Positions 6,287-33,631 of a stretch of DNA of 64,000 nucleotides are shown here, in pieces; positions within the stretch are counted from its first letter, which is position 1; each line of letters opens with the position of its first letter. Location of the stretch: positions 992,001-1,056,000 of the forward strand of contig NZ_LT629781.1 in assembly GCF_900105685.1 (NCBI RefSeq). Reading direction: 5' to 3'. The position numbers and the translations under genes were made by a program. This DNA is from Verrucomicrobium sp. GAS474 (lineage in GTDB: Bacteria > Verrucomicrobiota > Verrucomicrobiia > Methylacidiphilales > GAS474). The notes beneath the pieces were generated by a model that made no database searches, was not told the DNA's origin, and saw nothing but the letters and a program-made list of their open reading frames with translations.

Positions 6287-7555
6287 CTACTTCGTTTGGA
6301 CGGCCATCCTCAAATCCGCAATGCTCAATGCTTTCCCTGTTTTCTGATTCACTATCAGATCCTTGGTCTGGCCGATCTTGATTTCGATCGGTGCAATCAA
6401 TCCAGCAGCGATCATTTTGGCCAAAACGGGCTGAGCAGTGTGAAGGGCGCTATGAATGTGTGCCACAATGGTCTTTTCATCTACCGGAGGTTCTTCCGCC
6501 ACAAACAAGACAGTGAGTTGATCTCGTTCAGAGAAGCGTTTCACAACAAGCTGAACTCGAGAGAATGTGTGGCTTTGGCCGCGATTGGCCGCATTTAAAA
6601 TATCTGAAGGATAGATGTTTAGATCTGCTATCCGAGCAGATTCATTTCCCCGTCCCAGAAGTCGAAATTTGCGATATTTTACTCCGGACGATTCAATCCA
6701 GGCAGCTCGATCTCCCGTAGGATATCTGATGATGGGCATCAGCTTGCGAAGAAGATTGGTGATGACAATATGGCCGGAAATGTCCGGTTCATTGATGACT
6801 TTCCCATTATCATCAACGATCTCAAAAACGAGATGGTCACTAAAAGGGCGGTATTCGCCCATGAGGCAGGTGAAATCGGAGAAGCCAAGAATTCCTCCAT
6901 CAACGCTTCCGTACCCTAAAGGGCGAATTTTCGCTTTGGGAAAGAGTTTTTGAATAAGCCGAATTTGATCTGGGAAAAATGGCTCTCCAGCAAAAAGGAT
7001 AAGGTCGAGTTCGACGTTTACGTTTTGCTCGAGAAGAGACAAGAAAAGCTTATACAGTCTGGACGGCATGCCAGCGACCGCGGTTATTTGGAAGTCGGCC
7101 ATAATTTGCCCGACGAATTCATCAGACGACAAGAACCCCATTGGGAAGTGGAGCGTGTCAGGCATCATTTTCTCCAGGGAATAAGTCGCTGTTAGAAAGG
7201 CGGCATACAGATCCCCAGACGGAAAGAGATTCATAACCCGATGGCCATCGACCAAGCCGGCCGACGTAAAGGCCATAGCGGACACCTCCATGCAGGAAGA
7301 GTACTCGGAACGTGTCACGTACGAGAATTTCGGATTCCCACTGGTGCCACCACTGTTGAGAACAAGACCGCCAACTAAAGGGGCTGTGAGGATGTTTTGA
7401 CGGTTCTCACGATGTGCATTCCAAAAGGATGTTGGATCTACGATTGGTAGAACATCTAAAGACGAGTAGTCCGGGAGCGCGGAATAAAGTTTCTTGTAGA
7501 AGGGCGCTTTGGTTCGTGCTGCCTCGAAGATCTCCTCTATCGGAAAGACTTTCAT
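6287..7555 (-). CDS. PaaK/CapK-like adenylate-forming ligase (cargo)
   Basis: A 422-residue member of the AMP-binding superfamily, of phenylacetate-CoA ligase length. The nucleotide-binding loop LNSGGTSGNPKFSYVTR lies near residues 86-102. Later come IRPLGYGSVDGGILGF (adenine region), IRYPTGDRAAWI (the ribose-binding Asp region) and a small C-terminal domain (EIKIGQTKDL). Such enzymes activate an aryl or fatty acid as an acyl-AMP and transfer it to CoA or a carrier. A good AAGGAG precedes the ATG. It is the last gene of the ketosynthase, kinase and regulator run, starting 11 bp past the regulator's stop, so it may supply the starter unit for that ketosynthase (inference). The substrate cannot be read from the sequence. 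Confidence 0.8.
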   Translation of the reverse strand: MKVFPIEEIFEAARTKAPFYKKLYSALPDYSSLDVLPIVDPTSFWNAHRENRQNILTAPLVGGLVLNSGGTSGNPKFSYVTRSEYSSCMEVSAMAFTSAGLVDGHRVMNLFPSGDLYAAFLTATYSLEKMMPDTLHFPMGFLSSDEFVGQIMADFQITAVAGMPSRLYKLFLSLLEQNVNVELDLILFAGEPFFPDQIRLIQKLFPKAKIRPLGYGSVDGGILGFSDFTCLMGEYRPFSDHLVFEIVDDNGKVINEPDISGHIVITNLLRKLMPIIRYPTGDRAAWIESSGVKYRKFRLLGRGNESARIADLNIYPSDILNAANRGQSHTFSRVQLVVKRFSERDQLTVLFVAEEPPVDEKTIVAHIHSALHTAQPVLAKMIAAGLIAPIEIKIGQTKDLIVNQKTGKALSIADLRMAVQTK

Positions 7556-7566
7556 CTGTTTTCTCC

Positions 7567-8892
7567 TTATTTTCCGTTCGTGTATTTCTTGAGATTGAGC
7601 GTGTTAATCCGGTAAGACACTACACGAATCGTTGTTCCCAAGAGCTCAGCTGCTTTGGTGATGTTGCCCGAAGTTCGCTCCAACGTATGGACGATGATAG
7701 CTCTTTCAAAATCATCGACCATTTGCTCGTAGGTGAGACCTGTTTGAATAATCGTGGCAGGTAACGCTAAGGATATTTCCTTGGGAAGATGCGCAGGTTG
7801 GAGTTCCTTTTCGGTGCTGTAAACCAAGCAGGCCCGCTCGATCACATTGCGAAGTTCGCGAACGTTGCCGGGCCACGAATACATCTTCATGAATTGGATG
7901 GCCTCTGACCCGATGGCGGAAATTCCAGATTGTAGATTGTGGCGAAATTCGTGGACGAAGTGGTAAGCTAGGAGCGGCAGATCTTCGCGCCTTTCTCGCA
8001 GAGGAGGTATTTGGAGGTGATGGGCGTTAAGGTCTTCAGTGTTAGAATTGGGAGAATTCTTTAAGTAATCGTTAAAATTGTTTGAGCTGATAATCACTCG
8101 AGCACGGCATAAGGGCCCGTTTTCTTGAGCGCTCAGAGAGCTGAATATTCTTTCTTTGAGTGCACGAGAAATAACCTCTCCACCATCTAGATAGAGACAG
8201 CCCGATCCAGCCAAATCGACGGCCCCTTTGCTTGGAATGTGATCGGGGGTTGTTACGCCGAATAATTCCCGAACTAAGCTCTCTTCTGAATGTTGACGGC
8301 ACCGAACTGTGTAAAATGGTTCTGAAGATCGTGGTCCTAGCGCGTGAATGTGTCGAGCGATGAGCTCCTTCCCGACGCCCTTCTCCCCTGAGATAAAAAT
8401 GGGAACGTTGTCTTTGGCTAGTTCGTTGGCAATTCGCAGCATCTTTTGAAAAGGAGCGGAGATACCTATTGGGCTTCGAACAGGGAAAACCTCCTCTTCT
8501 CCTTTTTGTAAGATGGCTTGGGCGCGCGGTTCTCTTGAAGCAGCGATGGATTGCTGAACAAGATGTCGAAGTTCGTGGATATCGAATGGCTTAGCAATCA
8601 ATCCCACAGCACCTAGGCGTAATGCTTCGGCAAGAGTATTCTCCAAGCTAACGGCCGTGATCATTAATACCGGAATCCCCGGTATCAAATTTTTAAGTTC
8701 CTCTAAAAAAGTTAACCCACTGATTTCTGGTAATGCCTGATCTAGAAGAATGATGTCGAAACTTCCTTTACGTAGGATTTCTCGCGCTTCTTTGACGTCA
8801 CCCGCCAAGAACACGTTGTAGCGATCTTCCAAAACAGCTTTGATCGATTCCCTGGTCCCCGAGTCGTCATCGACACACAGAATATTTCGCAT
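7567..8892 (-). CDS. NtrC-family response regulator with degenerate AAA+ domain (cargo)
   Basis: A 441-residue regulator. The receiver (1-115) has D8-D9-D10, phosphoacceptor D51, T79 and K101 intact. The AAA+ domain (about 140-370) has Walker A GEKGVGKE (169-176), but the GAFTGA loop that contacts sigma-54 is absent (ELFGVTTPDHIPSKGAVDL replaces it) and Walker B reads LYLDGG, with Gly replacing the catalytic Glu. The arginine-finger region LRERREDLP and YSWPGNVRELRNVIERA remain. A Fis-type helix-turn-helix ends the protein (NITKAAELLGTTIRVVSYR). It is probably a DNA-binding regulator that no longer remodels sigma-54 polymerase. ATG 8892 is chosen over TTG 8901. Confidence 0.88.
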   Translation of the reverse strand: MRNILCVDDDSGTRESIKAVLEDRYNVFLAGDVKEAREILRKGSFDIILLDQALPEISGLTFLEELKNLIPGIPVLMITAVSLENTLAEALRLGAVGLIAKPFDIHELRHLVQQSIAASREPRAQAILQKGEEEVFPVRSPIGISAPFQKMLRIANELAKDNVPIFISGEKGVGKELIARHIHALGPRSSEPFYTVRCRQHSEESLVRELFGVTTPDHIPSKGAVDLAGSGCLYLDGGEVISRALKERIFSSLSAQENGPLCRARVIISSNNFNDYLKNSPNSNTEDLNAHHLQIPPLRERREDLPLLAYHFVHEFRHNLQSGISAIGSEAIQFMKMYSWPGNVRELRNVIERACLVYSTEKELQPAHLPKEISLALPATIIQTGLTYEQMVDDFERAIIVHTLERTSGNITKAAELLGTTIRVVSYRINTLNLKKYTNGK

Positions 8893-8915
8893 GGAGGGCA
8901 AAACAGCGGTCCCGC

Positions 8916-10436
8916 CTAAACGTCAGCGTGTTCGGGAAGTTTCTTGGAAAGCTCAAGCAAGGTTTCGATTTCGGAATCCACTAAAACGCTGAAGCTTGCA
9001 AGGAACTCTGGATCGCCCTTTTTCTCGGCGATAAGCTGACTGAAGCTTTTGATTGTGGAAAGGGCGTTCTTGATTCTGAAGGCAAGATCATTGGAAGGAT
9101 GTTGAAGATCTTTTGGTGACTGATGAATGATCTGGGTGCCGATGCGTTGAGGGGTTTCTTCGATGAGGACCATTGTGCCGATCTCATCGCCACGGGTTTC
9201 AAGATGGCGGGCTGTGATCTCGAGATGAAATCCATTAGGATCGTGGTATTCAACGCCGACCAGTCGCCCGTTGCTTTCGCTTGCGCGTCGCGCCACGTCG
9301 GCCACGCCTGAATGAATGGAATCAATTGATTTACGGGCTCCAGGCTTTGCGTTATCGAGCTTCAAAATCCTTTTAGCCTCACCATTAGCCCAGCTTACGG
9401 TGTGGTTTGAATCAATTAAAAGTAGTCCCGAGGGAACTGCATCAGCCATCCCTGCCAAAATGTGCTGTTGTTTCGTATTCTCGGTGAACTGGATAAGACC
9501 TTCGAGAATCCGCGCCACTTGATCGCTCACCTTAAGCAGTTTTTGGTGATCATTTCTGTCGTAGGAATCCCCGTTGGCTTTGGCTCCTAGAAAGAGCCAT
9601 CCAAGCAATGAGGAGTGAGCTGTAATAGGAATGACAATGTCAGCCCCCAGTGCTTCAAGAGTCTGGGCTAAAACCAGTCTATTTTCCGTTTGCTCGATGT
9701 TGCTCAGGAGCTTGCTACTGATGAGTTGCCCGTGTGTCTTTAACCATCGGACGAAAACATTGTTATGAGAAAATGCAGTCTGCCAGGCCTCTTCAGAGCA
9801 ACGAAGTCCTGCTCTCAGTGCGTAGTCTTCTCCACGAAGAGTGAAGATACCCACGCTGGTAGAGAGAAAGTGCGTGGTGAGTTCTTCGAGGGCGTCGTCG
9901 AGAACATCGAAGGGGCGCTGTAGTTTACCGAAGACGTCCGCAATCATGGGAATCTTCTGAAAGGGCAAAGTGTGCTGACCCGCGTTGATCGCAAGGGCAG
10001 GAATTTTGTTCTTCAGCTCGTTCACTTGCTGCGTGAGAGCATAATTGTCCGCAATGAGCTCGAGATGGCGGGTGGCTTGTTCAATGAGGGCTTGGAGGGA
10101 GGAACTAGGTGCATTGGAATCGAAGACGGCATAGATGCCTTGCGTGCTAGCTTCTCTGAAAGGAAAAGATTGGGGAGAACCGATCGCGATTGTCAGGCAT
10201 CCCGGCTTCCGTCTGGCCAGGGCTGTGATGAGCGGAACGGCCCCATCCAGATGTAGATCCACAATGGCGATACAGTGATTCCGTTTTTCTAGCCTGGTGA
10301 AGGCTTCTTGTGAGGTCTCTGCAGGCCAAAAGGCCAACAGGTCACTTAGATAACCCGTCAGGTTATCCACAAACTCAGGGTCGTCACTGCATAAAATGCA
10401 ATGCTGGCGATTGGTGGACGGAATAAAATCGTACAT
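8916..10436 (-). CDS. Receiver-GAF-PAS pseudo-histidine kinase (cargo)
   Basis: A 506-residue cytosolic protein. A receiver-like domain at 1-125 (HCILCSDDPEF, then IVDLHLDG with a candidate phosphoacceptor Asp) is followed by a GAF domain (about 165-310), a PAS domain (about 325-435) and a C-terminal helical segment LAFRIKNALSTIKSFSQLI that aligns with the dimerisation helix of the neighbouring kinase (VAHEIKNPLVAMKTFVQLL), but with Phe in place of the phosphoacceptor His. No ATPase domain follows. It is likely a sensing adaptor that dimerises with or modulates the full kinase encoded upstream. ATG 10436 is preferred over TTG 10445. Confidence 0.8.
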   Translation of the reverse strand: MYDFIPSTNRQHCILCSDDPEFVDNLTGYLSDLLAFWPAETSQEAFTRLEKRNHCIAIVDLHLDGAVPLITALARRKPGCLTIAIGSPQSFPFREASTQGIYAVFDSNAPSSSLQALIEQATRHLELIADNYALTQQVNELKNKIPALAINAGQHTLPFQKIPMIADVFGKLQRPFDVLDDALEELTTHFLSTSVGIFTLRGEDYALRAGLRCSEEAWQTAFSHNNVFVRWLKTHGQLISSKLLSNIEQTENRLVLAQTLEALGADIVIPITAHSSLLGWLFLGAKANGDSYDRNDHQKLLKVSDQVARILEGLIQFTENTKQQHILAGMADAVPSGLLLIDSNHTVSWANGEAKRILKLDNAKPGARKSIDSIHSGVADVARRASESNGRLVGVEYHDPNGFHLEITARHLETRGDEIGTMVLIEETPQRIGTQIIHQSPKDLQHPSNDLAFRIKNALSTIKSFSQLIAEKKGDPEFLASFSVLVDSEIETLLELSKKLPEHADV

Positions 10437-10457
10437 AGATTGCAAAACCCCTTTCGG

Positions 10458-10475
10458 ACTTACAAATTTGTAAGT
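10458..10475. promoter_or_regulatory. 18-bp perfect palindrome ACTTACAAATTTGTAAGT
   Basis: A perfect inverted repeat in the 101-bp gap between the histidine kinase stop (10538) and the pseudo-kinase start (10436). Both half sites read ACTTACAAA. It lacks a T-run, so an operator is likelier than a terminator; an internal promoter controlled by the cargo response regulator is possible. Confidence 0.6.
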
Positions 10476-10537
10476 TTCCTACAAATATGTGGGGCCAAGG
10501 AGTGAAAAGCAAGGGTGTACGAAAAGAGAGAATTAGT

Positions 10538-13018
10538 TTAACAAAAAACCAATTTGAAACTAGTTCCCTTGCCAGCCACGGTTTCGATGAATATCGCGGC
10601 GTGGTGGGCTTGTATGATTTCTCGAACGATCGAGAGACCTAGGCCATTGCCATCTGACTTAGAGGTGATGAAGGGTTGAAACAGTTTGGGAATGATTTCA
10701 GGCGGTATTCCATCACCTGTATCTTGCACGGTAACGATAACGATCTCTGGGGAGGGATCCTCTAATCTGGAATCATGGCCGATCATCCCTGTTCCATCAA
10801 AGTGATCAACAGATTCAGCGGTGAGCGTCAAATGCCCTCCGTCTTTCATAGCTTGGATAGCATTGAGTATAAGGTTGGAAAGGGCCTGCTGAATGCCCTG
10901 CCGCCGCCCTAAAACTAAAAGAGGCCCTTGAGGGAGATTGAGTTTAACGTGAATTCGGTTTTTGGTGATTTCGAGTCGATACAGCGCCAACATCGAACTG
11001 ACCACCTCACTGATATCGAGCATCTCAGTTTTCTGAGCTGCTGGTTTTGCCCAAACTAAGAGCTGATTCACGATCCCGTCGATGCGATTGATCTCCTTGC
11101 CAATGATAGTCGAAAAATGAGCGAGGAAGTTTTTGTCGTGAAATCGTTCCGGTAGGAGCTGGACAAACGTTTTCATGGCAACCAGAGGATTTTTGATCTC
11201 GTGGGCGACACTGGCTGACAAATTTCCCAAACTTGCCATGCGATCTGCTTGTAAAAGGTGGCGCTCCAAAAGTTTGATTTCCGAGAGATCGTGACAAATC
11301 AGGGAAGCGCCAAGAACTTTCCCCTGTTCATTTGTAAGTCTTCGGCAGGCGATGCGGATAGGAATCGGCCGGTCTGATCGATTGAAGAGAATCTCTTTAT
11401 TTCCAATTTCGTCGCCCGTCGTAAGGACTCCTTCGAAAAGTTCTCCGATGGGTTTTGGCAGCGTGCGAATATGAGCGCCTTCTTTTGGCAAGAGATCTCC
11501 CATGATCCTCTTGGATTCACGGTTCAAAACTGTGATGCGCCCATCTGAATCCGAGGAAATGATGCCATCGATAAGCTGATCCAGTACGGTGCTTTGATAT
11601 AAGCTGTTTTGCGAGAGCTCCGAGTAGAGCCGAATGATCGAGAGTCCCGATGTCAAATGATTCGCAAGCAGCTGAAGTGAGTCGACGTCTTCTTGATCGT
11701 AGAATTTGCCGGTGAGCCTCTCCCCCAGCAGAATAATCCCGACGGGCGTAGACTCTGAAAAAATGCCTATGATGAGGGCTGCCTGGAGAGTGCCGATATC
11801 CCGTAGCATGGGGTCATCTGAATTCAACTGCCGAGGTAGCATGTGAACAGCGATTGGGCGCCCATTCTGAGGTGACCGTGAGATGAACGATCTCAGATTC
11901 GAAAGCAGCTCTTCGGATGGAGGTAGAGATTCCCCGATGTGGCAGGTGGTTGGCTGGCAGAAGAAGTGTATCGAGCCTGTGTCGGTGCCGGCAATCGAGG
12001 CCATAGTTTGCAGCGACCTGAGGGAAAATTCCTCGATTGAACGTGTCTCAAGCGAAAGGTTTCCAAGCAGCTGAAGGCCCTTTTTCAAGTCGATGTTTCC
12101 CGGATTCACAAACAGCTTGTGAATGACTTTCTGAGAAATGCTCTTCGCTGGAGCCATCGACAAGGTGACAACAATTGTCGGGATCAGATGCGCAAGGAAT
12201 AGATTATCGAACGTAAGAAAATTGAAAGCCGCCTTCGTTGTCCACCACGTAAGAGCATACAAAGCGCTTAGATAGATGATCCAAAGCGTATAGGAAGCCA
12301 GCAGGCGAGCTAGCGTGCTAATACCAAGCAATCTCCGTGTTGAAATCCCGTACGCGATGATCAGATCAAGGATAAGGACCCAAAGTGGAGGGAGCTGGAT
12401 GACTTGGGAGTTTTTTAGAAATAGGGGAGCAATGCCAGCGGAAGTCATGGCTAGTCCGTTGAAGACGAGTACGCCGAGCAAGGCGTAATCCAGTTCCACT
12501 TGAGTGATGCCTCTGAGCCTTTTTCTAATTCGGATCCCTCGGATCACCGTGAAGATGAAGATGGAAACGTGGGCGACCGAGTAAAGCAGGAAGCCAGGCC
12601 CGTAGTTAGGGGTCGCAATGTTGATAAAACCGTCGGCGGAATAGGGAGCCGTGACCGAAATTAAGAAGAACCGAGTGAAGGCGAGGGTGGTACCACCAAT
12701 GATAAAAAGAGACCACGCGACGTTCCGACGCAGGACAGTCCAAAGAGGAAGTTGAGTGATAATCGCATCGCAAAGGATGTAAAGAGACAGGGGCATGAAT
12801 AGGCCGCTGACCGTACAGATGCGAATCCACGGCTCGATTTTTTCTGGGATGGTCTGCTGCAACCCTATCCAGACGCAGGAGAGCCATGTTGCGATACAGA
12901 CGCTTAGGAAAAGGAAGGCTTGATTGGTCGGGCGTTTGATTCCGCGCGAGGCAACCGAGAAGGCCAGAACCAGATTCAGAAGAAACGCAGCGCTGACCAA
13001 GTAGGAGGCGAGACTCAT
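10538..13018 (-). CDS. Membrane histidine kinase, 7TM-GAF-PAS type (cargo)
   Basis: An 826-residue sensor kinase. Seven to nine N-terminal membrane helices (about 1-295) are followed by a GAF domain (about 330-480), a PAS domain (about 490-590, VLDQLIDGIISSDSDGRITVLN), HisKA with SASVAHEIKNPLVAMKT (His near residue 606) and a complete HATPase domain (N-box LSNLILNAIQAMKDGG, G1 VQDTGDGIPP, G2 DGNGLGLSIVREI). The plan recalls PrsK-type kinases of PEP-CTERM systems, which pair with NtrC-like regulators, but no PEP-CTERM genes are nearby. Its ATG overlaps the ketosynthase stop (ATGA), so the two are co-translated. Probable partner: the response regulator two genes downstream. Confidence 0.88.
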   Translation of the reverse strand: MSLASYLVSAAFLLNLVLAFSVASRGIKRPTNQAFLFLSVCIATWLSCVWIGLQQTIPEKIEPWIRICTVSGLFMPLSLYILCDAIITQLPLWTVLRRNVAWSLFIIGGTTLAFTRFFLISVTAPYSADGFINIATPNYGPGFLLYSVAHVSIFIFTVIRGIRIRKRLRGITQVELDYALLGVLVFNGLAMTSAGIAPLFLKNSQVIQLPPLWVLILDLIIAYGISTRRLLGISTLARLLASYTLWIIYLSALYALTWWTTKAAFNFLTFDNLFLAHLIPTIVVTLSMAPAKSISQKVIHKLFVNPGNIDLKKGLQLLGNLSLETRSIEEFSLRSLQTMASIAGTDTGSIHFFCQPTTCHIGESLPPSEELLSNLRSFISRSPQNGRPIAVHMLPRQLNSDDPMLRDIGTLQAALIIGIFSESTPVGIILLGERLTGKFYDQEDVDSLQLLANHLTSGLSIIRLYSELSQNSLYQSTVLDQLIDGIISSDSDGRITVLNRESKRIMGDLLPKEGAHIRTLPKPIGELFEGVLTTGDEIGNKEILFNRSDRPIPIRIACRRLTNEQGKVLGASLICHDLSEIKLLERHLLQADRMASLGNLSASVAHEIKNPLVAMKTFVQLLPERFHDKNFLAHFSTIIGKEINRIDGIVNQLLVWAKPAAQKTEMLDISEVVSSMLALYRLEITKNRIHVKLNLPQGPLLVLGRRQGIQQALSNLILNAIQAMKDGGHLTLTAESVDHFDGTGMIGHDSRLEDPSPEIVIVTVQDTGDGIPPEIIPKLFQPFITSKSDGNGLGLSIVREIIQAHHAAIFIETVAGKGTSFKLVFC

Positions 13019-14235
13019 TCCTTAAAGCGAGCAAGTGCAATCGTACAATTACCGCCTCCCATTCCATGAGAGTTCACAAGCATAGTGTCGATTGAAACTT
13101 TGCGAGCGGCTCCCGGCACAAAATCGAGGTCGCAGATTGGATCCGGGATTTCGTAGTTGGCGGTGGGATGAACCATTTTACGGTCTATCGTTAAGGCAGA
13201 GGCCACCATTTGAAGCGCTCCTCCAGCAGCGAAAGGATTGCCGGTCACCCCCTTGATCGAGGAGATCATCACCTTCCGAGCATGCTGGCCAAAAACCTTC
13301 TTGATGGCATCACTTTCGACACGATCCATGTTTCGATCACTAGGCCCATGGGCATTGATGTATTGGACGCGATGGGTACTGATACTTCCGTCATCCATGG
13401 CTCCTTGCATCGATTCGACCAAACCTGATCCGTGCTCTCCATCATGCGGATCGAGGTTGGAGCGACAGCCAATCACCTCTGCGTAGATCGGAGCTTTGCG
13501 TGCCTTAGCATGCTTAAGCTCTTCAAAAATGCATACGCCCGCTCCTTCGGAAGCCAATCCTCGATCGCGTTTGAGGTCGAAAGGCCGACTGGCTTTCTCC
13601 GGGGGATCATTGCGGTCGGTCAGCATTCCGCAGGCTTCTAGATCCGCAAAAGGATGAAAGGCGATAGTGGAGTCGGATCCACCAGCCAGGATAATCTCTT
13701 CTTCACCGCTGCGAATGCGTTGATAAGCGATGCCCATTGCGTCCAAGCCTGCAGCGCAGGCTGTGGAAGTGGTCAGAGAGCGGGCGTGCAATCCAAAGTA
13801 TTCTGAGATCACGGTGCAGACCGAGTTCGCTGTTCCCGCAGGAATGAATAGAGGAGAGGGCGATGACCGCGGGACATGCTTCATCATGATGTCTAAGGGG
13901 CCTCCAGTGACGCCCATAACCAAGGATAGATTGGCGCGGAGTTTTCCATCTAGCTCGAGACGCGAGGATCTGAGGGCCATGACCGAAGACACGAGTCCAA
14001 AGAGCGCGTTCTTCCCGTAGCGATTTATTTTGATGCTCGAATCAAAATATTCGCTGGTATCGATTTTCCCTACCTCTCCGCCAATTTTACATTTGAGTGT
14101 CGAAACATCAAAGGACTTGATGTAGTCGATCGCACTATGGCCTAAAATTAAGTTAGACCAAAACTGCTCAACTCCAATGGCTTTTGGCGCTACAGCCCCC
14201 ACGCCTGTGATGACAACCCTTCGCTTTCTATACAT
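13015..14235 (-). CDS. Beta-ketoacyl-ACP synthase II-like protein with altered active site (cargo)
   Basis: A 406-residue ketosynthase of FabF length. The nucleophile motif STACAAGLDAMG gives Cys160, NAHG gives His296 and K328 is in place. The second catalytic His of FabF (TGH motif) is replaced: the sequence reads KGVTGNPFAAGG, with Asn333 exactly 37 residues after His296, as His340 is in FabF. The resulting Cys-His-Asn set resembles KAS III and chalcone-synthase-type enzymes. It probably condenses an unusual acyl starter in a small pathway together with the PaaK-like ligase. It is the first gene of the operon that continues into the kinase with a 4-bp overlap. Confidence 0.87.
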   Translation of the reverse strand: MYRKRRVVITGVGAVAPKAIGVEQFWSNLILGHSAIDYIKSFDVSTLKCKIGGEVGKIDTSEYFDSSIKINRYGKNALFGLVSSVMALRSSRLELDGKLRANLSLVMGVTGGPLDIMMKHVPRSSPSPLFIPAGTANSVCTVISEYFGLHARSLTTSTACAAGLDAMGIAYQRIRSGEEEIILAGGSDSTIAFHPFADLEACGMLTDRNDPPEKASRPFDLKRDRGLASEGAGVCIFEELKHAKARKAPIYAEVIGCRSNLDPHDGEHGSGLVESMQGAMDDGSISTHRVQYINAHGPSDRNMDRVESDAIKKVFGQHARKVMISSIKGVTGNPFAAGGALQMVASALTIDRKMVHPTANYEIPDPICDLDFVPGAARKVSIDTMLVNSHGMGGGNCTIALARFKE

Positions 14236-17513: not shown

Positions 17514-20500
17514 TTAGCTCCGTTCCAAGGACTCGACGGATCCATTGGACCGGACGATGTAATATTTTGAGGTTCCAAGATCGTACGGACGGTCTTCTTT
17601 GGTCGATCGATAGGCAGAGTTATAATTTCGGCTTATGGTCGCTTCGATGAACAGGGCATGCCTCTTCTTTTTCAGGAGATGGCCGATCAAGTCGGCACGA
17701 ACTTCAAAATGGCGACCGGCAGAGCTATCAGAGTCGTTCTCTTTTTTCTCTCCCCAGACGATCATTCGGGCAGCTTCGCTACCATTCGCCAGAGTGAAGG
17801 AGGTGCGCAAGGAGTTGGGAGTCAATCCCAGGAGTTGGCACATCGCTTTGTTGAAGACAGAAAATCCAAGATTTATTCCCTTCCGTCGGGGGTCGGTATG
17901 CTGCCACTCGGCATCGCCATCGACCTCTTCCGCCCATGGCAGGAAGGTCACTCCTAAGCGTCGTTGCTCCTCCCGGGAATATCCATTGAGGAGTTCGGCG
18001 AGGGAAAGCGGTCGTGGACGTCTTTTAGAGATTAGCGCCGCGCCTAAGATAGCAATCTGATCTTCAGGGATCATGACTGCCCGGACATCATTGTTTCCCT
18101 GTCGACGATGGTCGGCGATTCCAGCATAACCTGACAACGTGATCCATTCTCTGGGCATGCCCTTTCGAACTCCGGCCAATTCTTCAAATTCCTCATCCGT
18201 TGGAGAAAACCACCTCTCCATTTCTGGAAACTGACGCCAATATTCGGGTTTGAGCGGCGTCGGGCTTCGAAAATCGGATACCCATTGAAAATGCGTTTGG
18301 GGCGATCCTATTTCAAGATTCACCCAGGACTGAAATGGATTCACGATCGACTCGCGCTCGTAAGATTCAATGAGCAGGGGTTCTCGATCTATTAGCTCTC
18401 CCATGACGCACATGAGCGCATGATATTCCAAATAGACCCTCGTCGTTTCAATTTCGGGCTCCTGCCCATGGTCATTGGATCGCTTCATCCAGTCGCTATC
18501 GGATGACAGTTCACGCGGATCCGACCACCAATCTTTGTCGGAATAGCCCCATCTATCACAAATCCATTTCTCGGCCAGTCTACAGAATTCTTCAGGCCAT
18601 TTTCCGAAGACCCGCCCGGCAGGAGAAAACCAGTATGGCACCGTATCCATCTCGCTGAAGGAAAAGCGGCCTTTTTTAGCTGACTCTTCCCGCTCGGAAA
18701 GCGCCTGCCATTCCGGTCTGAGAAGGCAGGACTTCGGTTCATGGAGGCCACTTACCCTCTCCAATTCCTCGCTTGATCCATTCCAAAATCCTTCACTAGC
18801 CAATTTTTCGAGAATCTCCTTAGCAACCTGTCGAACGAAGACATGGGGGAATTCCGGATCCAACGCCACTTTGACTATCTTAGTGCCATGAGAAGCCACG
18901 CGTCGCATGTCATCTTCTGCTATGTGCCGCAGGAAGAGCAGTAGCCACATGCGGGCCGACATCCAGAAGAACTCCAAACGAGGAGAGCGAAAGGCTCCAG
19001 CCTCTTTGGAGGGCAGCTTTTCGACCAGCGCACCTAGGAGATCAGAGCCTTGCTTCGCGCGAATCAAAGACCTCGCAGAATGAAGTGCCTGCCATCTAAT
19101 CTTTTTTTCCGAATGGCCTAAAAAGCTCCATAGGAACAAGGCCAATGCCTCGTTCAAATGGGCTGGGGGTGCCAAAGGAGGCTTGGCAAGTGGCTTTGCC
19201 TTTTCCTGTGCCAACTTCCCTTCTAAACGGGTCATCCACCATTGGAAAACGGCCAGGATCGCCGTGGAATTTAACCGTTTGGCTAGGACATGGGCGACGT
19301 TGATCACTTCGACAACGGACAAAGAATCACTGTTCTGCGCCGCGGCGGAGATCAGTAATTGAGTCTCTCTTCCCTGACAGACGTCGGCGGCAAGAATTTC
19401 CTCTACGTCTTGAATAGAAGTGCTCCATTCCGCTTCGTATCGAGTCAGGGCGGGGAGATGCGACGCTATGAAACGGAAAACTCCCTGGGGAGCCCATGCC
19501 TCGACTTCAGGGGTGTGTCGCCATTGTCGCAGAAGACTCATAAACGACTTGGCGATCTCCCTGTGGATAACGATGTTGTCGGGATCTTGGACTAGCGCTT
19601 CCAAGAACGCAGGACGCTGATTGGCGAGAAGCTCTCTGGCGATCTCCTGTATCAGATGATCCACGCCATCTTTATGACGGGAACGCCACGCTGCACTTAG
19701 GGCGTCGGACAGCCCCGAAAAATCGTTCGCCATCGCTTCCTGTACAATGGGGAATGATTTGGCCTCCGTCTTTAATGAAACCGAGGAATATCCTCCTCCC
19801 TGATTACTTTCCAACGACGACAGGAATGCGGCAAACTTTTCTAACTCGATGATTTCTCTTTGCTCGGCAAGATGATGCTCCTTCGCCCAGGTGATGATCG
19901 CATCGGCATGCATCTTTCTCTCGGATAGCGGAATATCGCGACGAATACTCAGGCTGATTCTCTCGATCAGCCGGATCAACTCCGAACGTTTCCCTGATCC
20001 CTGCTCATAAAGTCGATCCAATAGTCGCAAGTAGACTCGATATTGAGAATCATGTGGAAGGGCAAAATTGAGTAAGGCGAGAATCCCATCCCATTCTAAT
20101 AGGTCCAAATCGATCGCCGCATCCACTAGGCCAAAAATCCCATCACCTATCCAATGAAGCCCCTCATCGTCCCACCGGGCGGCGGTCGCCAAGCCCAAGG
20201 GAAAGTCCAACAGCGAAATGGTTCGGATAAATTCTCGTTTTGGTAGTGAGGATGAGTCGGAAACGAACGGGACCTGTTGTTCCAAAATATCTACCAAACG
20301 CACCGCACTTTGGGTCGCCTCTGAGGGCAAGATGGCTTTGGCCAAAATCTGCCCTATGACCGACGTCAGCTTGAGAATCGGGATGGAATCGTCATCGAGA
20401 GAACTCGTCGAAGCGAGAGCTCGTCGATAATACGCCTCACCTGTCTCGGGTTTCAGTGTCGCTGCGGCACAACGCAACAGATTGCTACGACGTTCAGCTG

Positions 20501-23500
20501 CAGGAGCCGGGGTGCGGGAGATCACCTCCACCGCTTTTTCGATCAATCGTTCCGTGACGAGGCCATAGGCGGAAGACACACGTAGCTGTTCCGCCAACAA
20601 TAAATTCGCATGAGAGGCTCCTGCCTGTACGAGCGCCTCGCTCGCGTCGCTTATCTCGTCAAAGAAGGACGAGGCGTCGCCTTGGCAAAACAATAGGGCT
20701 TGCGTCGAAAGCTTGATCCACTCGAAAAAGGTGGTGTCCGTCTTGAACCACCTCTGCTTAGCGTGCCCGCGCCGCTTTTGGAGATCCTTGCGGAGTTCAG
20801 GCAGGATTTTCTCAACAGAAGAGAGCGTATGGATCACGGCCGCTCGGCGAGCGTAGGCTTCGAGAGTCGAAGAGAATTCTTCCAGGTGATAGGACTCCCA
20901 TCCTCTTTCCTCCCGTTCGGTAACCGGAGGAGTTATCGACTTCAGAGTGATGTCGGATCCTCGAATGACGCTTTGCAAGCAATGAACCCGTAGCGGAAGA
21001 TCCCAGTCCGATCGATGGATGTGAGAAACGGGAGAAGCTTTTGGAAAGGGTTGAGGGAAACGTTCAAAAAGCCACAGGATCAATTCCGGAGTTTCACCCG
21101 AATAGAGTGCTAGCTCGCCAAAGGAAACGATGTTCTTGGCGAGATGCTCACGACGCCTCTTGCCAATGGGAGTCTGTTGTAAGTCACGCAGAGTTCGCTG
21201 AACCAGCGTTTTTTCCGGAATGCCTCCTTGATCCCAGATTTCCGCCAAGACGATGATCCTAGCCCAGGCGGGGAGATCCAAGACTTCCAAGTGGCCACAT
21301 AGTCGGGAGGGAAGCTCGCTCTTTGCCAGTCGGCACGCGAGTTTTTGAGTCAACTCCGGCCATATCCGAATCGGTTTCCATCTTTTCAGCCGCTGGACGA
21401 CAGCCTTTTCGCCGTACAAGAAATAAACGGCCTCCAGTTCGAACGCGATGTCGTCGGTCGTGATATTCCATAATGACCTTTCCGAGGACATCTTCGTTTC
21501 CTGGATCATTACTGAGCGAACGTTCAACCACGCTTTCCCCTGATCAAATAGGGTGACGGCCTCTTCCCGACGATTTTCTTCTCTCGCCTGCACTGCCGCA
21601 AGTCGCCAACAGGCGGGACCATAGAGAGGGCCATCTTTGAGTTGCCGAAAAAGCTCGGCCACGACATCGGGATCGCCGTATCGGGAGGCGAGCTCGGGAT
21701 GTTCGGCAATGGCAGCTTTTAACGAGGCGTCTGATCGAATGAAGTCGGTCGAGAGCAGGAGAAGGCGCAACGCATTTTCAGCATCGTCGAGATGCCCCGC
21801 ACTCTGCAGGGCCAGTTTCAGCCGTCGACGAGCCACGCTTAGACGTTTGATTACGTCCTGAATGCACAAGGAGATTGGCCGCTGAACGGCTAAGTCGATC
21901 AAGTCGCGATGGCGGTTAGCCTGATAAAGATGATCCGCGATCGAAACCGCACTGAAGACATCAGTCTCCAACCGTTCGAGGAGGCATTCCGCTAGGATGC
22001 CGTGCGCTATGGCGAGCGATTCTTCGGTGACTTTTCCATTAAGCCATACATCAAAGTCTTCGTCCCGGAAGCAAAGAGAATCGTTCTCGATATGAATTCC
22101 TGGAGAAAGAGCCTGGCACGCAGCCTTCGTCTCCTGCATAGAAAGCCTCCATGCTTTAGAAAGGATTTCCAAGGGAGCTGGTCGAGATAGGGCAATAAGA
22201 AGACTGGTCTTTTCCTGGACGTCAGAGGCGAAGTGAGAAGAAAAATCGTTGTATAGATCCGAGAAGAGATCTTCGGAGGTTCTGCGGACACGCTCCAGAA
22301 GAACGGGCAGGGTGCTTTCGGGACGACGTCGCAGCGCATCGACGATCGTGGGAGCAGCAGGTTTACTGGTAAGGTAATAGAACTGGACTCGCGGATTTCC
22401 CCCCGTTTTGGTGTGGAAGGTCTGGCACTGCTCGTCCGTGGCGAGTGGATAGCGATTCCGAAGGTTTTGGGATGATGCCTGAAGATCGAAACCCTCCAGG
22501 AGAAGTTCGTGGGTTCCAGCGGGCGGTTTTAGCCCGGCGCAGCGATGAGTGCGGCTGGTGACAATCAGAGCGCAATGTGGCGGGAGAGAAAGCCCCCAGA
22601 GTCGTTCCAAAAAGAACGAAGACCCTTCTTTTCGAGCCATTTCAAATGCGTTGTCGGCAGCGTCGATAACCAGAACAAGCCATGCCCCTTCCTGCTGAAA
22701 GACGCGGGAAACATCTTCGACGAGGCGCTTGAGGTGACGTTCACGGGCAACGTCATCGGAGGACAGGAGCTGAAATGGCATTCCGCATTTCACCGCGATC
22801 TCGTTGGTGATTTGGGGGAGGCATCCTTTCGCCAAATGGCGGACAGAACCGAAATGGCAATCCCCTCCGCCAAAGCAATCGTAGACGACAACACACGATC
22901 CTTCTGGAAGATGTTTGCACAGGGATAAAGCAGTCGTCGTTTTTCCCACTCCCGCTCCGGCGTGCGCGAGGACGCGGCCGCTGCTGGACGCGAGGACCAC
23001 TTCGGCCAACCGCTTGGCATCGCTGGATTCAATGAGGGCCTTAGGGAAAGAAAAAACCGGAGGTTCGGGAAACAAGTGGTCGAGAGAACCAACCCCCAGG
23101 CAGGCCAACACTTCATTCAAACCCAAACCGAGTTGGCCAACTGTATCGGGGAGAGCCTGCTTTCTAACCAGAGAGGTCAACGCGGACACCGCGTCACCCG
23201 GGCTGCTGATCCCGGTTGCGCCAACCTCTTGGATCAGCTTAATGCGTTGCAGCTCCCTAGACTCTTCTCCGCAGTGGGAAAGGTCGAGATGAGTCACAAA
23301 GGACGTAAATAGAGAGCCTTTGAATTTGGTCGCCTTTTTGAATCGGGTAAGGAGGTCCTTGGCGGAAGCGTCAGCCTTCCGGGAAAAGGCTTGAAGAGTC
23401 TTTCCGTTTCGCAGGTGAATCTGAAGACGGGTTAAGGTCTCAAGCACTTCGGGGGAAATCGGCTGATTGCTTACCAGGCGAAGGCTTATTTTGGCATTCA

Positions 23501-23903
23501 ATGCCTCGGAGGAATGCTTCTCGCAAAGGCCTTGATACGCCCTCGCAAGCCCCGCAATGAGGCTGGGCCCTTTGGACGACTCACAGAGGCGCGCGGCAGT
23601 CCACGGGATAGTGGGATGCCGGGTGCTGTATTTGAGCTGTTCGATGACAATTCGGTCGGCCGTCTGGATGGTATCTCCTCCGAAATAGCTCGTGAGATCA
23701 ACGGCTAGATAGTGACCTTTCGAGTCTTGAGAGGACTGTTCACGTGAGACTCCCTCCATGATGACGCGACGCAGCTGACTCTTCGGGATCAGCATTTGCA
23801 CGATTCGTCGTGCCGCCCATAGGAAGTGAAAGTCGTGGCCTGCTTGAGATTCCCTGACTCCTCCGGGAAAAGATCCTGAATGTTCCATGGCTCGCTGAGT
23901 CAT
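17514..23903 (-). CDS. Giant STAND NTPase with N-terminal Cap4-type nuclease, candidate antiphage sensor (cargo)
   Basis: 2129 residues. N-terminal nuclease-like domain (about 15-200): counted from the TTG at 23906, E51 in IMEGVSREQ, D70 in YLAVDLTSYFGG and the QxK of IEQLKYS (Q90, K92) fit the E...D...QxK pattern of Cap4/DUF4297 PD-(D/E)xK enzymes. A P-loop NTPase follows (Walker A HAGAGVGKTTTA near 318, VYDCFGGGDCHFG, Walker B LVLVIDAADNA near 410, then SRTHRC), then about 1600 residues of helical repeats. This is the nuclease-STAND-repeat plan of Avs-type proteins that detect phage proteins and then cleave DNA. It is much longer than typical Avs2-4 proteins. ATG 23903 is preferred over TTG 23906. 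The defence role is inferred from architecture. Confidence 0.82.
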   Translation of the reverse strand: MTQRAMEHSGSFPGGVRESQAGHDFHFLWAARRIVQMLIPKSQLRRVIMEGVSREQSSQDSKGHYLAVDLTSYFGGDTIQTADRIVIEQLKYSTRHPTIPWTAARLCESSKGPSLIAGLARAYQGLCEKHSSEALNAKISLRLVSNQPISPEVLETLTRLQIHLRNGKTLQAFSRKADASAKDLLTRFKKATKFKGSLFTSFVTHLDLSHCGEESRELQRIKLIQEVGATGISSPGDAVSALTSLVRKQALPDTVGQLGLGLNEVLACLGVGSLDHLFPEPPVFSFPKALIESSDAKRLAEVVLASSSGRVLAHAGAGVGKTTTALSLCKHLPEGSCVVVYDCFGGGDCHFGSVRHLAKGCLPQITNEIAVKCGMPFQLLSSDDVARERHLKRLVEDVSRVFQQEGAWLVLVIDAADNAFEMARKEGSSFFLERLWGLSLPPHCALIVTSRTHRCAGLKPPAGTHELLLEGFDLQASSQNLRNRYPLATDEQCQTFHTKTGGNPRVQFYYLTSKPAAPTIVDALRRRPESTLPVLLERVRRTSEDLFSDLYNDFSSHFASDVQEKTSLLIALSRPAPLEILSKAWRLSMQETKAACQALSPGIHIENDSLCFRDEDFDVWLNGKVTEESLAIAHGILAECLLERLETDVFSAVSIADHLYQANRHRDLIDLAVQRPISLCIQDVIKRLSVARRRLKLALQSAGHLDDAENALRLLLLSTDFIRSDASLKAAIAEHPELASRYGDPDVVAELFRQLKDGPLYGPACWRLAAVQAREENRREEAVTLFDQGKAWLNVRSVMIQETKMSSERSLWNITTDDIAFELEAVYFLYGEKAVVQRLKRWKPIRIWPELTQKLACRLAKSELPSRLCGHLEVLDLPAWARIIVLAEIWDQGGIPEKTLVQRTLRDLQQTPIGKRRREHLAKNIVSFGELALYSGETPELILWLFERFPQPFPKASPVSHIHRSDWDLPLRVHCLQSVIRGSDITLKSITPPVTEREERGWESYHLEEFSSTLEAYARRAAVIHTLSSVEKILPELRKDLQKRRGHAKQRWFKTDTTFFEWIKLSTQALLFCQGDASSFFDEISDASEALVQAGASHANLLLAEQLRVSSAYGLVTERLIEKAVEVISRTPAPAAERRSNLLRCAAATLKPETGEAYYRRALASTSSLDDDSIPILKLTSVIGQILAKAILPSEATQSAVRLVDILEQQVPFVSDSSSLPKREFIRTISLLDFPLGLATAARWDDEGLHWIGDGIFGLVDAAIDLDLLEWDGILALLNFALPHDSQYRVYLRLLDRLYEQGSGKRSELIRLIERISLSIRRDIPLSERKMHADAIITWAKEHHLAEQREIIELEKFAAFLSSLESNQGGGYSSVSLKTEAKSFPIVQEAMANDFSGLSDALSAAWRSRHKDGVDHLIQEIARELLANQRPAFLEALVQDPDNIVIHREIAKSFMSLLRQWRHTPEVEAWAPQGVFRFIASHLPALTRYEAEWSTSIQDVEEILAADVCQGRETQLLISAAAQNSDSLSVVEVINVAHVLAKRLNSTAILAVFQWWMTRLEGKLAQEKAKPLAKPPLAPPAHLNEALALFLWSFLGHSEKKIRWQALHSARSLIRAKQGSDLLGALVEKLPSKEAGAFRSPRLEFFWMSARMWLLLFLRHIAEDDMRRVASHGTKIVKVALDPEFPHVFVRQVAKEILEKLASEGFWNGSSEELERVSGLHEPKSCLLRPEWQALSEREESAKKGRFSFSEMDTVPYWFSPAGRVFGKWPEEFCRLAEKWICDRWGYSDKDWWSDPRELSSDSDWMKRSNDHGQEPEIETTRVYLEYHALMCVMGELIDREPLLIESYERESIVNPFQSWVNLEIGSPQTHFQWVSDFRSPTPLKPEYWRQFPEMERWFSPTDEEFEELAGVRKGMPREWITLSGYAGIADHRRQGNNDVRAVMIPEDQIAILGAALISKRRPRPLSLAELLNGYSREEQRRLGVTFLPWAEEVDGDAEWQHTDPRRKGINLGFSVFNKAMCQLLGLTPNSLRTSFTLANGSEAARMIVWGEKKENDSDSSAGRHFEVRADLIGHLLKKKRHALFIEATISRNYNSAYRSTKEDRPYDLGTSKYYIVRSNGSVESLERS

Positions 23904-23976
23904 CAATAGGGGGAATCACTGTACGCAGAAATCTATTTCATAATGACCTAAGTCACTTTCGAAATCGCTCGCTCAT

Positions 23977-24705
23977 CTATGCGAGATAGTCGGCTAAAAA
24001 ATTGGTTACTCCCTGAATCATCTGCTCAACATCCGTCTTTTTGAACTGATCGAATTCGCCATGGGCTGCTTTATTCCGAATGTCAGCCCAGGCACGAAGC
24101 TGTTTAGCTTTGAGCTCATTAAACGCTCCACTCGTCTTTAAATCATCGATAAGCGGCCCGAGCGTCTTCGGCTCTCCATTAGACTTAATAATTTCTAGCG
24201 GCGGTTGCTGTTGGCCACAGAGGGTTCGTAGACCTTTCTCCAATACGGCACCCGCCAATACCGCTGCAGGCACGTGGTCAACTGAGCTGGTTTGCGTTCC
24301 TCGCAAAAGCGATTCGGCTTGTCCCATGTAGTCGGCCGCCACTTCAGCTTCGATTTTTAGAAAGATGCTATCGAGAAACCCTTTTTCCAAGTCATCACGA
24401 AATGCCTCTAAAATGCCTAGAGAGTATTGTACTTCCGGCTTTTTCCCCCCGGCTTTAGAAAAAATGTCAATTTGTTGACCAAACTTCGAATCTGATTTTA
24501 CGAAAGGGTCGAACAACGTCAGACAGTTAGTCTTCCACCGTGCCAGACGTTGAGAATCCCAATCGTAGCTGGTGTAGCTTATGTGAACGTTGCCCCGCGT
24601 ATGAGGAGGGATAACTCGAATGGATTCGACAAAAGCTTTTCCTTCCAAAATTAGTTCGTCGCATCGAGTAATAATCAATACTCGCGCTTTGCTTGTGGCA
24701 TTCAT
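23977..24705 (-). CDS. HEPN-like protein (cargo)
   Basis: About 242 residues from the ATG at 24705 (MNATSKARVLIITRCDEL); an ATG at 24768 would add 21 residues of unlikely sequence. The C-terminal half looks like a HEPN or DUF4145-type helical domain: AAVLAGAVLEKGLRTLCG, a middle helix LGPLIDDLKTSGAFNELKAK, and WADIRNKAAHGEF carrying the R-N-x3-H motif typical of HEPN RNases. It lies 73 bp upstream of the STAND gene on the same strand, so it may be the first gene of that operon. It could act as a toxin-like RNase or a nucleic-acid-binding accessory. Confidence 0.65.
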   Translation of the reverse strand: MNATSKARVLIITRCDELILEGKAFVESIRVIPPHTRGNVHISYTSYDWDSQRLARWKTNCLTLFDPFVKSDSKFGQQIDIFSKAGGKKPEVQYSLGILEAFRDDLEKGFLDSIFLKIEAEVAADYMGQAESLLRGTQTSSVDHVPAAVLAGAVLEKGLRTLCGQQQPPLEIIKSNGEPKTLGPLIDDLKTSGAFNELKAKQLRAWADIRNKAAHGEFDQFKKTDVEQMIQGVTNFLADYLA

Positions 24706-24768
24706 TAGTTTCTTATTTGTAAACGAACAGGCCAAAGGCACTTGTCGTGAGCCGCTCATGAGTGGCAT

Positions 24769-25743: not shown

Positions 25744-26047
25744 ACGCCAAGGGATAGCACCGGTCTTCACGCTCCCAGGCCATGTGCAGTTTTACTGGAA
25801 AGGCCCTTTTTACGGGGCAGTAAAATAGCCTCTTTTAGTAAAATGGGCTTCTTTTACTAATCCAATGATAAGGCCGGCATGTAGTAGATCTGTATATTGC
25901 GCTTAGACACCGGACAGTCCTTCCGAAGAACTGGCACCTCTGCCTTTCAACCTCTCCCGATGTTCCAAGCATATATCGCGCGAAGATTCTGTCGTTCGTG
26001 TGTCGCTGCCATTTTCGAGACAACCCGTGAATGCGAAAATCGTTCGA
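25744..26047. repeat. Intergenic region with nested TTTTACT/AGTAAAA inverted repeats
   Basis: TTTTACT (25790-25796) pairs with AGTAAAA (25819-25825); a second hairpin pairs TTAGTAAAA (25835-25843) with TTTTACTAA (25852-25860), so four copies of one heptamer alternate in orientation within 71 bp. They could be terminators of the lipoprotein gene or paired operators for the phosphoesterase gene. No other gene is seen here. Confidence 0.6.
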
Positions 26048-26785
26048 ATGCCACCCATACTAGGCAGCACCCATCCATCCCTTGTGCCGTTTTCTTCCAT
26101 TCCCGCCGTGACATATGCTGTCGGGGACATTCACGGTCGAGCTGATCTCTTGAAAGAGCTTCTCTTTATGATCCTCACCCATCGAAAGCAGATCCATGGT
26201 TCTGCCAAAATCGTTTTCCTGGGGGACTACGTTGATCGTGGCCCCGATGAAGCTCGAGTCATCGATATTCTCCGTTCCAAAAAGCTTCGAAAAGACTTTG
26301 ACGAAGTGGTGATTCTGAAAGGCAATCACGAACTCATGTTGATCGACGAACTAACCTCATACATGGCTGATAAAACCAAAATATCGGAAGGGAAATTTTC
26401 GGTAGCGAAACTGTATACTCGAGATTACGACGCCTTCACGATCAGTCTTCGAACATTGAGAGATTTCTTGGAAAAGATGCCTCTCTTTCATTCGGACGGA
26501 ATCCGACTCTTCACCCATGCTGGAGTTGGGCCGACGTCAGAGATTGGATCGTGGTCCGCTGATGATCTCTTGTGGTATTGCGGCCCGGTACAGGACCTAA
26601 CAGGGCGCTTGGTGGTTCACGGTCACACGATTGTCTGGGATGGCCCTGTGGCAAACCGATCTGCCGTGAACGTGGACACAGGAGCCTTTATGAGTGGCCG
26701 TCTTACTGTCGCAATTTTTGAAGGCTCGTCCAGGCAGCCGACTTTTCTGTCGACAATGCCCACCGATTCTCCAACAACCCTCTAA
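26048..26785 (+). CDS. Calcineurin-like metallophosphoesterase (cargo)
   Basis: A 245-residue protein with the full PPP/PrpA-type metal-binding set: VGDIHGRADLL, FLGDYVDRGPDE, LKGNHELM, then LFTHAGVGP and VHGHTIVWDGP. This is the serine/threonine protein phosphatase or diadenosine tetraphosphatase fold; the short length favours a bacterial PrpA-like phosphatase acting on phosphoproteins or nucleotides. The start could be ATG 26048 or GTG 26000; neither has a good ribosome binding site. It is convergent with the next gene, whose stop overlaps its end by 4 bp. Confidence 0.82.
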   Translation: MPPILGSTHPSLVPFSSIPAVTYAVGDIHGRADLLKELLFMILTHRKQIHGSAKIVFLGDYVDRGPDEARVIDILRSKKLRKDFDEVVILKGNHELMLIDELTSYMADKTKISEGKFSVAKLYTRDYDAFTISLRTLRDFLEKMPLFHSDGIRLFTHAGVGPTSEIGSWSADDLLWYCGPVQDLTGRLVVHGHTIVWDGPVANRSAVNVDTGAFMSGRLTVAIFEGSSRQPTFLSTMPTDSPTTL

Positions 26786-28070: not shown

Positions 28071-28465
28071 GTACCTTCATAGCCTTGAAATCGGCGCTCC
28101 CTCAGAACGAAGGTCAACCGATATCAGCCCTCACTTTTGTTGCAGAAGTGGAGGCGTCCTAATCTTGCCCCAGAGAAAAGCCCCTTCGTAAGGTCGTCGT
28201 AGTGTTCCGCATGAACGAAACGCGGAGCCGAACCTGAACACTATGACTGCTCTTTTAATGGCCGATGGTCGCGCACCCCCGTCCGTGAGGATTTGATCGC
28301 GACAAAAAAAGAACCCCGAGTTGGAGCTCGGGGCCTTTTTCAACCGGGCGGAGCCGGTGGGCAAACTATCTGATCGCAGCCTACTTCTCCCCGCCCCCTT
28401 AGTCAAACCTTTAGTAATCAAGGAGGTCCACGCTTTGTCTCGTGGCTTTCTTGAGGAGAACCTGC
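28071..28465. other. 395-bp non-coding region upstream of the transposition operon
   Basis: No credible coding sequence on either strand. It holds a bidirectional terminator (28314-28333) in the middle and the tnsAB promoter and ribosome binding site at the right. The part 28131-28310 could encode a short terminated transcript. Confidence 0.45.
28314..28333. terminator. Bidirectional intrinsic terminator upstream of tnsAB
   Basis: CCCCGAG and CTCGGGG arms around a six-base loop. On the plus strand the stem is followed by CCTTTTTC, on the minus strand by TTCTTTTTTTG, so it can stop transcription both ways and would shield the transposase operon from read-through. Confidence 0.8.
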
Positions 28466-31138: not shown

Positions 31139-31140
31139 CC

Positions 31141-33617: not shown

Positions 33618-33622
33618 AGATG
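33618..33622 (+). repeat. Target-site duplication AGATG, right copy
   Basis: Identical to 2895-2899 and directly follows the ACA terminus of the right end. Nine bases then separate it from the dnaN stop codon. Confidence 0.85.
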
Positions 33623-33631
33623 ACGGGAGGA

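Follow-up and report, generated by a model that had tools for sequence, protein, structure and literature searches.

Several described systems resemble parts of a gene cluster of Verrucomicrobium sp. GAS474 that lies in a window of 64,000 nucleotides (contig NZ_LT629781.1, positions 992,001 to 1,056,000), to which unprefixed coordinates refer. The cluster encodes a ketosynthase (KS), a membrane histidine kinase (HK), a second kinase-like protein (HK2), and a response regulator (RR). In the autoinducer synthase-sensor pairs CqsA/CqsS, LqsA/LqsS, and LuxM/LuxN, an enzyme gene likewise adjoins the gene for a multi-transmembrane (multi-TM) histidine kinase, but the enzymes have other folds, and the KS of the cluster is without condensing residues. 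The two-component systems PrsK/PrsR, AtoS/AtoC, and ZraS/ZraR share with it a HisKA-HATPase core, a receiver-AAA-Fis regulator, and, in relatives of the operon, a sigma-54-type promoter. Unlike them, the operon has an extra second kinase and a KS, and the window proteins stay far under the PrsK/PrsR equivalog cutoffs of NCBIfam (71.3 versus 300 and 190 versus 502.6 bits).

On the enzyme side, KS0 domains of trans-AT polyketide synthases (PKS) pass chains on without elongation. The operon KS resembles these domains in the loss of a condensing His, as described for KS0 in an excerpt of PMC4661987, and in keeping the acylatable Cys; it differs in being a free-standing type II protein with kinases alongside and no PKS nearby. 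With FabF/KAS II it shares the fold, Cys163, and Lys335 but has lost His340 and/or His303.

As judged from gene neighborhoods, KS-HK-HK2(-RR) is a conserved operon of Verrucomicrobiota, with the regulator present in some loci, and its KS is predicted to be a condensation-dead ketosynthase rather than a usual condensing enzyme. The bare operon architecture, together with the loss of the catalytic triad, can be regarded as practically certain. Each part is of a kind already described, but we know of no other case in which such parts are combined with a dead ketosynthase, and no description of such a KS-kinase operon was found in the full-text literature searched, which mostly leaves out subscription journals.

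In the window, the KAS II-like KS gene is transcribed first, followed by those for the membrane HK, HK2, a receiver-AAA-HTH_8 regulator, and a PaaK-like ligase, with a TonB-dependent receptor further on:

13015-14235, minus strand: KAS II-like pseudo-ketosynthase (KS), from Pfam, NCBIfam, residue mapping, and AlphaFold2 (AF2)/Foldseek
10538-13018, minus strand: membrane histidine kinase (HK) with 7 TM segments, GAF, PAS, HisKA, and HATPase domains, from domain calls; H-box and ATPase intact
8916-10445, minus strand: HK2, in which the HATPase is lost and the DHp-like hairpin lacks the phosphoacceptor His; pseudo-receiver, GAF, and PAS domains are present, from domain calls and a model
7567-8901, minus strand: NtrC-type response regulator with an intact receiver, a degenerate AAA+ domain, and a retained Fis-type helix-turn-helix (HTH), from domain calls
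6287-7555, minus strand: PaaK-like adenylate-forming ligase, from NCBIfam and plasmid relatives
3822-5888, minus strand: TonB-dependent receptor, from Pfam and NCBIfam

An earlier annotation made from the letters and open reading frames (ORFs) alone, here called the sequence-only reading, had described five genes on one strand with little spacing, a 4-bp overlap between the KS and HK genes, and a TonB-dependent receptor beside them. The ORF coordinates bear this out: all five frames are open on the minus strand, their junctions range from the 4-bp overlap to a 92-bp gap, and 398 bp separate the ligase gene from the receptor gene, which has the same orientation. Pfam and NCBIfam agree on the names of the operon genes, except for the ligase, which has no Pfam match and a weak NCBIfam match. 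The host genome is a single contig of 3.76 Mb.

Ketosynthase residues and fold

Pfam assigns the window KS to the thiolase/KAS fold, in agreement with its AF2 model (pLDDT 89), which superimposes on FabF with a Foldseek TM score of 0.95. Sequence identity to the bacterial FabF structures found by Foldseek is mostly 33 to 36%, and the protein scores below the NCBIfam fabF equivalog cutoff (334.6 versus 493.75 bits). Active-site residues, numbered as in Escherichia coli FabF, were compared in 60 distinct operon-linked KS proteins, the window one included; the other 59 are the relatives mapped onto FabF. Exclusion of rows shorter than 380 residues, scoring less than 450 bits, or with identical C termini had reduced 74 rows, 4 host paralogues among them, to 64.

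The full Cys-His-His triad of FabF is found in none of the 60 proteins. In a control set, all four residues Cys-His-His-Lys are retained in 22/22 paralogous KAS proteins from nine genomes. The active-site Cys is present in all 60 operon-linked proteins, and the Lys is present in 57 (Arg in 3). The first His (His303) is retained in 32 proteins and lost in 28/60, replaced by Tyr in 25 and by Asn in the other 3. The second (His340) is retained in just 3 and lost in 57/60, most often replaced by Asn (50) and otherwise by Cys (4) or Ser (3). This combination of a retained Cys and a lost condensing His is KS0-like. A Cys-His-Lys-Asn pattern is found in 25 proteins, including the window KS, which retains Cys163, the HGTGT-type His303, and Lys335 and has lost the second His (His340 to Asn).

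Further changes surround the active site. According to an excerpt of PMC7138838, the catalytic and gate residues of FabF are Cys163, His303, His340, and Phe400, and gate loop 2 comprises residues 265 to 275. The window KS carries the replacements Phe229 to Gly, Thr305 to Pro, Thr307 to Asp, Gly310 to Met, and Phe400 to Met, and its loop 2 is shortened. The relatives show the same pattern: Phe229 is replaced by Gly in 56 of the 59, and Thr305 is replaced by Pro in 53; Thr307 has become Asp or His in 58, and Phe400 is retained in just 14. The residue at position 270 of loop 2 is missing in all 59 and in the window. At least 55 relatives have a bulky residue (L, M, I, or V) at position 310; the same excerpt of PMC7138838 reports that bulky residues at this position of FabF lower crosslinking more for long-chain than for short-chain acyl carriers. 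In the tree, the operon-linked KS proteins and that of the window form one group (100/100), separate from the paralogues, with the window KS on a long branch (1.35).

The losses of condensing residues, the paralogue control, and the gate changes together are therefore the grounds for the name condensation-dead. An assignment to ordinary FabF was rejected, as the triad is lost. Formation of an acyl-cysteine by these proteins is possible. Cys-His-Asn is the triad of KAS III, and because the window KS and 24 others resemble KAS III in this respect, condensation might survive in some of the proteins. That it is a family-wide function is argued against by the Tyr and Asn variants at the first His.

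Conserved neighborhood, kinases, and promoters

The window HK2 is matched (E ≤ 1e-8) in 53 of 387 sampled genomes of the phylum, with nearly full-length matches in 49 of them, its own counted. Among 20 regions around HK2 relatives, KS adjoins the kinases in 19, and the twentieth begins inside a kinase gene. When the GTDB genome collection was scanned with an HK2 N-terminal alignment, 80 loci were retained; the scan rested on a single pattern, [LVI]QK[TA]LAE[TN][LV], which divergent versions such as the window HK2 would escape. All loci among the 80 that bear a taxon name belong to Verrucomicrobiota in the GTDB sense (Chthoniobacterales/Spartobacteria, Kiritimatiellia, Lentisphaerae, and Pontiella), and a few are titled just "bacterium" or "PVC group". 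Carriers of the operon available in culture include Pontiella sulfatireligans F21 and the Pontiellaceae strains B1224/B12227 (L096, L098, and L099).

Of the 54 loci whose upstream DNA reaches 1.3 kb or more, 53 encode KS directly 5' of HK, a count that omits 26 of the 80 loci (21 with HK less than 1.3 kb from a contig end and 5 without a clear HK). Fifty of these come from the ORF caller, and three of its four misses were recovered by another choice of frame; the absence of KS from four loci was thus rejected for three of them. As in the window, a 4-bp overlap is the commonest KS-HK junction (18/50 loci). Within four genes on the opposite strand, 41/42 loci encode a receiver-HisKA-HATPase protein, 20/42 a FadL/TodX-type outer-membrane protein, and 10 an FAD-binding oxidase. 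Neither FadL nor the receiver-kinase adjoins the window copy. No carrier-protein gene was seen near the operons by a simple motif test.

The sequence-only reading had proposed a neighborhood search, which would expose a chance assembly. That search, run here, recovers KS, HK, HK2, and the regulator as a module conserved across Verrucomicrobiota; the ligase and the TonB receptor, which the reading had counted as members, are both missing from the loci of the first 20 relatives, and no relative of the ligase is found at E ≤ 1e-20 in the 386 other Verrucomicrobiota genomes. For the latter reason, the ligase was rejected as a core part of the operon; it appears to be an addition in the window copy. 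The pairing of an acyl-enzyme fold with sensing stands, and relatives add an outer-membrane channel for hydrophobic compounds. The proposal that the enzymes "activate and extend" an acyl or aryl acid finds no support, because the triad is lost in 60/60 and the relatives' neighbors are a FadL-type channel and/or a receiver-kinase.

The window ligase falls below the PaaK equivalog cutoff (53.8 versus 646.3 bits). PaaK-like ligases near LuxE/LuxC-type genes are found on plasmids of Salmonella enterica, Streptomyces, and Streptantibioticus (L012:11389-16266, L013:15001-22442, and L159:8001-15367), possibly as a gene set for the conversion of acids to aldehydes. The window ligase is 31 to 35% identical to those at the three plasmid loci over its full length, a kinship that fits the activation of a carboxylic acid. 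Unlike those loci, the window has no LuxE or LuxC gene; a search for such genes matched only the ligase itself.

Several other genes adjoin the operons. In many Chthoniobacterales loci, the receiver-kinase has a minus-strand gene of about 660 to 865 codons beside it, in the position that FadL and the FAD oxidase occupy in Kiritimatiellia. In one locus (L041:1994-4429), a protein with a weak Pfam match to the lantibiotic dehydratase N terminus is encoded beside the receiver-kinase. Genes for B12-binding radical-SAM proteins and BchU-like methyltransferases are found beside some operons (L028:16738-18405, L043:4111-5580, and L031:6946-8037).

The window has both parts of a two-component system, an HK with H-box and HATPase and an RR with a receiver. 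In motif counts, from which HK, HK2, and RR rows below set length and score limits were excluded, the H-box His is present in 64/64 HK proteins, and the kinase core of the window HK is intact. HK2 relatives are complete kinases as well (H-box His in 77/77). The term "pseudo-kinase" used in the sequence-only reading thus holds for the window HK2, which has neither H-box nor HATPase, and for no other copy. In its model, for which the pTM is low (0.41), a two-helix hairpin accompanies the receiver-like, GAF, and PAS domains. Similarly, "NtrC-like" describes the architecture of the window regulator and not its motifs: GAFTGA is lost, and the Walker B Glu is replaced by Gly, whereas 17/18 of the relatives' NtrC-type regulators have the GAFT motif. 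Lack of sigma-54 in the host was rejected as the cause of this loss, since the host has RpoN, which is present in 22 of the 23 genomes searched.

Promoter-like sites of the -24/-12 type were scored with a sigma-54 matrix (P ≤ 0.05) after removal of twelve overlapping locus pairs. On this matrix, such a site points toward FadL in 18/26 unique loci versus 2/26 toward KS, and toward the receiver-kinase in 13/22 versus 4/22 in the other direction. No -24/-12 site stands out upstream of the window KS.

Possible functions of the operon

The availability of acyl-thioesters is a key indicator of the state of a cell, yet bacteria are known to have few sensors for it, and we know of none with a ketosynthase fold. 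We prefer to read the operon as a two-component phosphorelay into which a pseudo-ketosynthase is built, present in the window in a mobile, rewired form; this reading is proposed tentatively, with confidence just short of even. A lipophilic acid or acyl group would bind to the KS, probably through a covalent bond as an acyl-cysteine, and the KS would report it to the membrane HK. Together with HK2, this kinase would set the phosphorylation state of the regulator, which would switch the channel genes, and the uptake or handling of a hydrophobic compound would then track its supply. In the window, HK2 would keep only its sensing and dimer parts, and the regulator might bind DNA but should have lost activation of sigma-54 RNA polymerase, and the output of this rewired descendant would be independent of sigma-54. 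If they are functionally linked, the ligase could supply an activated acid, and the TonB receptor an outer-membrane entry that replaces the FadL channel found in relatives.

It may fairly be inferred that a lipophilic acid is sensed. A more specific proposal is that the ketosynthase has turned acyl receptor: the acyl group borne by its Cys, or the absence of this group, would be the input to the phosphorelay, and an outer-membrane lipid channel would be switched via sigma-54, in a system confined to Verrucomicrobiota as sampled and carried further, as a rewired version, by a Tn7-like element. This proposal is speculative and, taken whole, rather unlikely. With condensing residues lost, the Cys never lost, and the same kinases nearly always alongside, the operon would clearly exemplify the conversion of an enzyme into a signaling part; it also gives a handle on regulation in Verrucomicrobiota.

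Several observations weigh against the phosphorelay reading. Locus L083 (5164-13361) encodes the receiver-kinase, FadL, HK, HK2, and the regulator and is the one locus that truly has no KS. A clear NtrC-type regulator follows HK2 directly in just 11 of the 48 loci with a gene at that place; the output must therefore be a different one in some of the family. The threonines on the phosphopantetheine side are altered (Thr305 and Thr307, as counted above), which weakens the case for acyl-acyl carrier protein (acyl-ACP) as the donor. Finally, the window copy may be decaying instead of rewired.

Among other explanations, the KS might be a nonelongating acyltransferase that moves acyl groups from a carrier or coenzyme A (CoA) to another molecule, with the kinases merely regulating a lipid modification. 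Retention of the Cys in 60/60 and the Lys in 57/60 while condensing His residues are lost would suit such an enzyme, as would the FAD oxidase, methyltransferase, and radical-SAM genes near some loci, and loss of the HGTGT His marks KS0 domains according to the excerpt of PMC4661987. However, no acceptor enzyme is constant nearby, and the most constant partners are kinases rather than biosynthetic genes. This explanation seems doubtful. Production of a diffusible acyl signal at a KAS III-like Cys-His-Asn center, sensed by the adjoining membrane kinase, is likewise improbable, if slightly more so. It would account for an operon shared by an enzyme gene and a multi-TM kinase gene and for the channel for hydrophobic compounds alongside in relatives, and the Cys-His-Lys-Asn pattern of 25/60 proteins, that of the window among them, would provide the catalytic center; the FabF triad is broken in all 60. 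The replacement of the first His by Tyr (25/60) or Asn (3/60) and of the second by Cys or Ser (7/60), the loss of the conserved Phe229 and Thr307, and the negative carrier-protein motif test all speak against it, and the signal "production" suggested by the sequence-only reading is not supported. A decaying passenger caught by the Tn7-like element, with the ligase and receptor as unrelated cargo, would explain the losses in HK2 and the regulator, the long KS branch, the missing FadL and receiver-kinase neighbors, and a ligase with no counterpart in the phylum sample, but is the least probable, given five open frames with tight junctions, an intact HK core and receiver, and losses that are domain-clean and not frameshifts.

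Tn7-like element and its cargo

G+C content falls from ~68% to 48 to 56% between ~2.8 and 34 kb, and the operon lies inside a Tn7-like element; the mobility claimed for the region in the sequence-only reading is thus borne out. The features of the element are as follows:

2900-33617, no strand: Tn7-like element of 30,718 bp, TGTCC...TGACA, with repeated motifs resembling TnsB sites at both ends
2895-2899, no strand: left copy of the 5-bp target-site duplication AGATG
33618-33622, no strand: right copy of the 5-bp target-site duplication AGATG
28442-31138, plus strand: TnsAB-type fused transposase
31135-32292, plus strand: TnsC/TniB-type ATPase
32289-33419, plus strand: TniQ target selector

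The operon is assigned as cargo of this element because of the transposase genes, the end motifs, and the flanking AGATG duplication. TnsA and TnsB, TnsC, TniQ, TGT..ACA ends, and a 5-bp duplication are all present, and the repeated end motifs are like those of Tn7-like transposons with fused TnsAB. Unlike these, the window element has its right end 14 bp from the end of dnaN (beta clamp; region 33618-34726), a site of which a term search of the text of PMC10293859 finds no mention. TniQ may recognize the 3' end of dnaN. When the joined flanks were compared with three relatives that have dnaN, the dnaN side alone aligned and the far flank did not. Spread of the operon by plasmids or phages was considered and rejected: the window HK2 has no plasmid match, the HK2 of a relative has none over 80% of its length, and viral contigs gave no match.

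Besides the operon, the element carries a gene for a 2130-residue protein (17514-23906) that matches the PADLOC Avs3a model over its whole length (E = 2.8e-144). Two other cargo genes, at 23977-24768 and 26000-26785, encode proteins with weak similarity to HEPN/DUF4145 and calcineurin-like phosphoesterase domains and have no PADLOC match. A Tn7-like element is thereby shown to move a signaling module together with an Avs3-like defense gene. Related TnsAB proteins (E ≤ 1e-30) are found in 4 of the 386 other sampled genomes of the phylum. Just outside the left end, at 2846-2895, lies an extra copy resembling the right end, as if two elements shared one site.

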